DNA of 64,000 bases from NCBI GenBank assembly GCA_013360915.1, contig JABWAT010000001.1, positions 131,259 through 195,258 on the forward strand, given 5' to 3'. The notes beneath the pieces were generated by a model that saw only the letters and a program-made list of their open reading frames with translations, had not been told where the DNA came from and did no database searches. Shown piece after piece: positions 34,831 to 35,237 of this stretch; within the stretch, counting starts at the first letter, position 1, and each line of letters starts with the position of its first letter. The stretch is from Bacteroidota bacterium (GTDB lineage Bacteria > Bacteroidota > JABWAT01). Both the position numbers and the translations under genes were made by a program.

Positions 34831-34880
34831 AAACAAAAAAGCCCACCAATGTGGGCTTTTTCAGCGGTCCGGACGAGGCT
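34831..34880. repeat. 50-bp direct repeat, copy 1 (tRNA-Asp end plus terminator)
   Basis: The 50 bases are identical to 35130-35179, at an offset of exactly 299. They hold, on the minus strand, the last 16 nt of tRNA-Asp, including the discriminator base, and its terminator. Partial similarity to the tRNA continues to about 34910: the 10-mer CGACCTCCTG is shared, with about 9 extra bases in between. This copy is not a functional tRNA. Confidence 0.95.
34835..34861 (-). terminator. Second copy of the tRNA-Asp terminator
   Basis: GCCCAC (34841-34846), CAAT and GTGGGC (34851-34856), extended by A/T pairs. It is identical to the hairpin after tRNA-Asp and now follows the GIY-YIG remnant. Confidence 0.85.
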
Positions 34881-35114
34881 TCCCGATCTCATCGGGACGA
34901 CCTCCTGGGATTAACGTTTCTATAAATCTTCTGCTTTTCATCCGCTTTATCTGCTTTTCACGAAGGATGGCATCCCTTTTTGTTTCAAATGATTCGCTGT
35001 AGAGTAAAATCCACGGACAACCAGATTTTGTTACAGCCTTAACGCCAGATTGGAAGAGAACCCAATGTAATACTTATCAAGTATCTGGGAATATAGGATG
35101 TAGGTATGATACAT
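34861..35114 (-). pseudogene. Decayed GIY-YIG endonuclease ORF fused to a tRNA-Asp end
   Basis: From the ATG at 35114 the minus strand reads MYHTYILYSQILDKYYIGFS, then reaches a TAA at 35031-35033. This is the start of a GIY-YIG domain: 'YILYS' and 'YYIGFS'. Directly after, in another frame, comes 'TKSGCPWILLYSESFETKRD', then 'EKQIKRMKSRRFIETLI', the rest of the same small family (COG2827 type), down to a TGA at 34861-34863. The segment joining both parts (normally about 10-15 residues with HNxG) is missing, so a deletion has broken the gene. The last ~16 codons ('GGRPDEIGKPRPDR') are read from the tRNA-Asp-like copy. Intact relatives are about 80-100 residues. Confidence 0.85.
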
Positions 35115-35129
35115 GATCCCAACTCGAGG

Positions 35130-35179
35130 AAACAAAAAAGCCCACCAATGTGGGCTTTTTCAGCGGTCCGGACGAGGCT
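35130..35179. repeat. 50-bp direct repeat, copy 2 (in the intact tRNA-Asp)
   Basis: Identical to 34831-34880. It spans the native terminator and the last 16 nt of the functional tRNA-Asp. Confidence 0.95.
35134..35160 (-). terminator. Terminator of tRNA-Asp
   Basis: On the minus strand, GCCCAC, ATTG and GTGGGC (35140-35155) are flanked by A and T runs, 8 nt after the tRNA 3' end. Confidence 0.88.
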
Positions 35180-35237
35180 CGAACTCGCGACCTCCTGCGT
35201 GACAGGCAGGCATTCTAACCAACTGAACTACCGGACC
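35164..35237 (-). tRNA. tRNA-Asp (anticodon GTC)
   Basis: The 74-nt minus-strand sequence folds into a full cloverleaf. The acceptor stem is GGTCCGG with CCGGACC, the anticodon stem CCTGC with GCAGG, the loop CTGTCAC has anticodon GTC, and the T arm is GCGAG-TTCGAGC-CTCGT. The discriminator base is G, as expected for Asp. CCA is not encoded. A sigma-70-like promoter lies 63 nt upstream and a terminator 8 nt downstream. Confidence 0.97.

Follow-up and report, generated by a model that had tools for sequence, protein, structure and literature searches.

The stretch of 64,000 nucleotides analysed here (the window) probably carries, behind its tRNA-Asp(gtc) gene, a free-standing homing-endonuclease unit of minimal size, now dead, of a kind that resides in tRNA genes. 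For such units we show the anatomy, the adjacency to a tRNA gene on the same strand, the existence of empty sites, the position of a hairpin in the displaced tRNA part, the tracking of tRNA isotype by the nuclease, and purifying selection on the protein.

On the minus strand, the locus consists in order of tRNA-Asp(gtc), a terminator, a broken GIY-YIG gene, an incomplete second tRNA-Asp, and the terminator once more (Table 1). The 3′-end of tRNA-Asp(gtc) and the terminator hairpin make up an exact direct repeat of 50 bp (34831-34880 and 35130-35179, offset 299), and identical 50-bp pairs of this kind have a chance expectation of only ∼1e-19. The 5′ fragment of the gene translates as MYHTYILYSQILDKYYIGFSSNLALRL followed by a stop (35114-35031) and matches the Pfam GIY-YIG family (PF01541) at E=1.6e-4, just under the cut-off. 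After a deletion and a frameshift, the 3′ fragment reads TKSGCPWILLYSESF...GGRPDEIGKPRPDR and a stop (35031-34861), with its C-terminus GGRPDEIGKPRPDR encoded by tRNA and hairpin letters. Since roughly ten codons are lost, those for the conserved HN residues among them, and the frame is shifted, as seen from the translation and the alignment invariants, this copy of the nuclease is dead. The displaced tRNA copy is composed of nt 41-50 (CAGGAGGTCG), a hairpin (TCCCGATgagATCGGGA) and nt 59-75 (AGCCTCGTCCGGACCGC), the hairpin replacing T-loop nt 51-58 (CGAGTTCG); no other palindrome of the hairpin's pattern occurs in the window, with 0.01 expected.

Table 1. Features of the broken unit and its host tRNA gene, in window coordinates
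Feature	Position	Strand	Evidence
Intact tRNA-Asp(gtc)	35163..35237	-	ARAGORN; sole tRNA-Asp gene found in the assembly by genome-wide tRNA census
tRNA-Asp terminator hairpin, copy 1	35135..35160	-	Inverted repeat with U-tract, identical to copy 2
GIY-YIG ORF 5′ fragment, stop after YIG motif	35031..35114	-	Translation; Pfam PF01541; protein search of genomes, 21.9 bits
GIY-YIG ORF 3′ fragment, other frame, C-terminus from hairpin and tRNA sequence	34861..35031	-	Translation, alignment invariants
Displaced tRNA-Asp part, nt 41-50	34898..34907	-	blastn chain to tRNA
Perfect 17-nt hairpin TCCCGATgagATCGGGA in place of tRNA nt 51-58 (T-loop)	34881..34897		Same position in tRNA-Asp units of G001, G006, G018 and G054
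Displaced tRNA-Asp part, nt 59-75	34864..34880	-	blastn chain, sequence check
Terminator hairpin copy 2, behind displaced tRNA part	34836..34861	-	Inverted repeat, identical to copy 1

A first-pass annotation, made from the sequence alone, had described the exact repeat around a broken GIY-YIG gene, the breakage by deletion and frameshift with a stop at 35031, and the tRNA-derived last codons of the second reading frame; all three held, the repeat in both its coordinates and its offset and the codons on translation. It had taken the extra tRNA copy to be the last 16 nt of the gene, which we correct to nt 41-75, interrupted by the 17-nt hairpin that it had missed.

The nuclease is a single-domain GIY-YIG protein of ∼80-90 aa, similar to UPF0213/COG2827. 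Intact relatives match PF01541 at E=2.5e-14 to 9e-17, keep the GIY-YIG motif and share the invariant residues Y5, Y16, G18, R26, H30, N31 and E62. The closest solved relatives by sequence are PDB 1ywl (EF2693) and 1zg2 (BH0048), at E=2e-7; these small UPF0213/COG2827 proteins are of equal single-domain size, but embedding in tRNA genes has not been described for UPF0213. The nuclease has no separate DNA-binding domain, and it matched no NCBIfam, PHROG, known defence, phage or NCBI family. Searches of phage and plasmid collections gave few matches, all weak, and an annotated homologue, yazA, was seen in the plasmid set.

Further units are present in the same genome. On contig C17, the terminator behind a tRNA-Asn gene precedes an intact GIY-YIG gene; next come copies of tRNA-Asn that are broken and contain hairpins (TCCGGCagagGCCGGA among them), and last a truncated second nuclease. 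At this largely intact unit (L003/L304, G000:C17:17500-21500), an additional broken tRNA-Asn copy lies upstream of the intact tRNA-Asn. The end of contig C5 (L302) carries a displaced tRNA-Ala part with a hairpin and then a nuclease, and the end of contig C4 (L303) carries tandem 83-bp broken tRNA-Ala copies with hairpins. Since both pieces lie at contig ends and the genome-wide tRNA census contains no intact tRNA-Ala, the assembly probably breaks inside a tRNA-Ala array. The census found one copy each of tRNA-Asp(gtc) and tRNA-Asn(gtt). The other GIY-YIG genes of this genome (L001, L004, L005, which is UvrC, and L006) have no tRNA in their loci.

With the C17 protein as query, relatives were found in 29/60 genomes of the phylum, many of them as tandem arrays, the longest of which has eight units of ∼365 bp in a row (G052:C34). 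Scanning named genomes by protein alone gave 63 loci from Bacteroidota, Ignavibacteria, Marinimicrobia, Patescibacteria and others, and at all 63 a same-strand tRNA gene lies no more than 331 bp away, in most cases no more than 60. Because an initial alignment, of 21 nucleases, proved too diverse for scanning contigs, the pattern was taken from a narrower alignment of tRNA-linked members, and the scan therefore measures that subfamily. Among all 157 distinct genes collected, 136 have an adjacent tRNA on the same strand and none has a tRNA neighbour on the opposite strand; of the genes without a tRNA neighbour, several are at the end of a contig or within an array of broken tRNA copies. Decayed copies include the window unit and L114. 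We additionally observed a pair of tandem nucleases with a complete tRNA-Val(tac) gene on either side, a unit where the duplicate tRNA is whole (L061, G024:C12:55600-60200), and, at a locus without any tRNA, a different GIY-YIG gene present three times in near-identical form in ∼7 kb (L053, G052:C31:265500-276000).

The units occur in two mirror layouts. In layout A, the intact tRNA is followed by the nuclease and a displaced 3′ part, and in layout B a displaced 5′ part is followed by the nuclease and the intact tRNA. Each unit measures ∼300-370 bp and contains a single GIY-YIG ORF, and the break points vary. More than half of the units lie at the 5′-end of the tRNA, nearly every unit retains one intact tRNA, and many displaced parts are located behind a terminator. 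The reading frame often enters the tRNA sequence: 33/48 unbroken layout B genes stop inside the intact tRNA (for example ...RPRGATE before the stop, from tRNA-Arg), and 14/37 layout A genes with a recognisable displaced part stop inside that part.

An ordinary tandem tRNA duplication that captured a gene by chance and later received independent REP-like palindromes, without any mobility, would agree with the finding that palindromes are also dispersed at sites unrelated to tRNAs (50 of the 54 inspected copies lie away from the nuclease). We consider this very unlikely, as it is already hard to reconcile with the 63/63 association, the single strand, the mirror layouts and the fixed hairpin position described below. 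A remnant or satellite of a tyrosine-integrase genomic island with the tRNA 3′-end as its att site is all but excluded. Such islands likewise regenerate tRNA 3′-ends, but the size of the units, the many units at the 5′-end and the absence of an integrase between the tRNA copies in any inspected unit argue against it, as do ends that do not lie at a fixed att core; an integrase with an att core at both ends, which would identify such an island, was not met in the inspected units.

The displaced tRNA parts were analyzed for palindromic inserts, which were found in 51 of the 69 units with a recognisable displaced part. This count is strict: of the 18 units failing it, several have nested hairpins by eye and a few have none, and in L061, L094 and L156 the T-loop of the displaced part is intact and the alignment revealed no hairpin. 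The hairpins are located only in displaced copies and within tRNA loops. For the most part no tRNA bases are lost, with pure additions in 37/58. Inserts in the T-loop fall exactly between GTTC and GA at 17 loci representing six amino-acid isotypes, inserts in the D-loop fall between TA and G at 12 loci of tRNA-Arg and tRNA-Ala, and inserts in the anticodon loop are seen for Ser, Gln, Pro and Cys. In tRNA-Asp and tRNA-Gly(gcc), eight nt containing GTTC are replaced rather than interrupted, and the replaced position is common to the tRNA-Asp units of five genomes, in which one stem pair of the hairpin is T-A in one genome and C-G in the others such that the stem is kept. The palindrome CCTGCCTGCCGGCAGGCAGG is found in units of both Bacteroidota and Patescibacteria, and Marinimicrobia have a variant of it that differs by one base.

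This pattern could instead reflect a role at the RNA level, in which the hairpins keep the displaced half-tRNA from folding or being processed with the real tRNA in a shared transcript and the nuclease is incidental. The restriction of hairpins to tRNA loops of displaced copies is consistent with such a role, and displaced halves could compete for pairing. We nevertheless regard it as unlikely: any disabling change would suffice, yet the insertions hit one exact dinucleotide step, the inserts belong to a palindrome family that is dispersed in genomes and associated with the nuclease, and many displaced parts lie behind a terminator.

Empty and filled sites were compared in the Flavobacteriaceae, where tRNA-Arg(tcg) lies behind a yqeY-like gene in 29/30 inspected genomes and the nuclease is present in 5/30 loci and absent from the others. 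Since filled and empty loci share this synteny, the unit is best read as an insertion with patchy presence, and occupied and empty alleles at one site, as a homing endonuclease requires, are present here. The first-pass annotation had proposed a minimal mobile unit of nuclease, tRNA tail and terminator, and suggested looking in relatives for intact ORFs of 80-100 aa beside tRNA genes, for empty sites, and for C-termini resembling the adjacent tRNA. Intact ORFs were found in many related genomes, syntenic empty sites exist, and many ORF ends are tRNA-encoded in both layouts, so the proposal is supported in the main, with mobility still inferred. Two parts of it needed changing: insertion is not only behind a tRNA, given the mirror form upstream of an intact tRNA, and the displaced tRNA part is an altered copy, given its hairpin at a fixed loop position.

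The nuclease tree was compared with tRNA isotype, giving 34 isotype changes versus 79.9 when isotypes were shuffled, with 0/200 shuffles as low, though the alignment is short and many forks are unresolved. The nuclease lineage thus tracks the isotype as an association; vertical descent contributes too, and the causes are not separated. Across five Arenibacter genomes, dN/dS of the nuclease at one locus is 0.065, and this strong purifying selection shows that the protein is used, whether for itself or for the host. The Arenibacter unit lies behind the same gene in six genomes and looks vertically inherited.

These last results are also what a domesticated host gene would produce, that is, a nuclease with a host function at tRNA genes (repair, control of tRNA copy number, or defence) which is inherited vertically and has the duplications as by-products. 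In its favour are the purifying selection and long persistence without obvious decay in Arenibacter, as well as the isotype clustering. Against it are the patchy presence among genera at one syntenic tRNA, the many isotypes, the tandem arrays and the decayed copies, so that we consider domestication improbable.

We favour the homing-endonuclease reading, which fits because it accommodates the conserved nuclease domain, the flanks of one whole tRNA and one tRNA part, the arrays, the empty sites and the isotype tracking. In this model, the unit combines a single GIY-YIG domain with a duplicate of part of the host tRNA. The nuclease would cut an element-free tRNA gene at a fixed point in a loop, and the nuclease gene would then be pasted in through recombination with an occupied copy, leaving a whole working tRNA on one side and the displaced part on the other. 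The displaced part, together with either the original promoter or a terminator, would serve as a homology arm, and repeated cutting and recombination between tRNA copies could generate both tandem arrays and array collapse. Nuclease cutting, homing and the role of the hairpin are inferred, and we observed neither cleavage nor transfer.

Among tested systems, the closest is SegB of phages T4/T6 (PMC13096335; reviewed in PMC2988022), which acts in tRNA regions as a free-standing GIY-YIG homing endonuclease. It cleaves within tRNA genes, its published motif is RAWTSGAAC, and tandem tRNA-segB amplification depends on its nuclease activity (PMC13096335). The reverse complement of the motif, GTTCSAWTY, corresponds to the T-loop, and our hairpins interrupt it directly after GTTC; from this we infer that the hairpin would destroy the cut site in the displaced copy. 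The two systems are alike in a GIY-YIG nuclease beside tRNA genes of any isotype, a T-loop motif and tandem tRNA-nuclease arrays. They differ in that SegB is phage-borne and we found no description of it embedded in a tRNA duplication, whereas the present units are chromosomal, encode a single small domain on the same strand as a regenerated tRNA, and carry hairpins in the displaced part. That the units work like SegB is inferred by analogy, with only the coincidence of position with the motif known.

Several observations weigh against homing. In an occupied locus, the putative cut site persists in the intact tRNA, and the hairpin would therefore give only partial immunity unless the nuclease also recognises neighbouring DNA. 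The Arenibacter unit looks vertically inherited, and vertical descent may account for part of the isotype clustering. In addition, three units have displaced parts with an intact T-loop, as noted above, and the protein lacks a separate DNA-binding domain.

The palindromes themselves are linked to the nuclease beyond the units. The form CCTGCCTG-N-CAGGCAGG is present in nine of 60 relatives, all nine of which have the nuclease (P=7e-4). In 200 Flavobacteriaceae genomes, nearly all of different genera, a wider palindrome pattern is associated with strong nuclease matches at an odds ratio of 9.8 for at least two copies (P=4e-10) and 17.8 for at least five (P=3e-9); these statistics are correlations without phylogenetic correction. 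A genome-wide preference of the palindromes for hairpin loops was rejected, as flank complementarity of dispersed copies is no higher than at random sites. Two arrangements were seen by inspection: eleven CCTGCCTG palindromes in ∼32 kb, most within a longer repeat (GTCATTCCGAGC...GCGAGG^AATC; L305 and L306, G008:C2:1199500-1234000), and the palindrome at a constant point inside another dispersed repeat, GATTGCTTCGGTCGTTC^CTCCCTCGCAATGAC (L183, L192 and L195, G048).

In the REP/RAYT system (PMC3733652), a nuclease gene is likewise flanked by palindromes that are dispersed in the genome, but the enzyme there is a Y1 HUH transposase rather than a GIY-YIG nuclease, and the palindromes here lack the GTAG/CGTC tag of REP. 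Palindrome abundance in the Flavobacteriaceae showed no significant association with Y1 transposases (PF01797; P=0.48 and 0.08), and the association with the nuclease persists in genomes without them. A Y1 transposase linked to the palindromes, which would define a REP/RAYT system, is therefore not met, and we ruled out the palindromes as a RAYT product. In a bolder reading, which remains no more than possible, the dispersed palindromes and the tRNA-resident nuclease belong to a single system, a GIY-YIG counterpart of REP/RAYT, in which the nuclease might open tRNA loops and other sites for palindrome insertion and the palindromes might mark or protect its own tRNA copies.

Homing-type nucleases among chromosomal tRNA genes are also known from mycobacteria (PMC6582537), but those belong to the HNH family, lie in large tRNA clusters thought to be phage-derived, and come with no described duplication of a tRNA part in the relevant passages of that paper. 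In the open-access literature searched, which did not include subscription papers or preprints, we found no paper in which GIY-YIG genes of bacterial chromosomes are connected with hairpins or with duplicated tRNAs. Within that literature, a widespread family of single-domain GIY-YIG nucleases that are embedded in chromosomal tRNA genes, have a hairpin at a specific position of the displaced part and are statistically linked to dispersed palindromes appears to be undescribed.

Because the hairpin position is exact, it predicts a cut site that can be tested directly. If the homing reading is true, the units would be a chromosomal counterpart to phage SegB and would explain both the short GIY-YIG proteins with odd, tRNA-encoded C-termini and the assembly breaks at tRNA arrays, while offering a candidate partner enzyme for abundant palindromes without a known mobiliser. 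Single-copy, essential tRNA genes of many bacteria would then house one of the smallest autonomous selfish elements, a single protein of 80-90 aa, showing that a parasite can occupy an essential gene by bringing a spare part.
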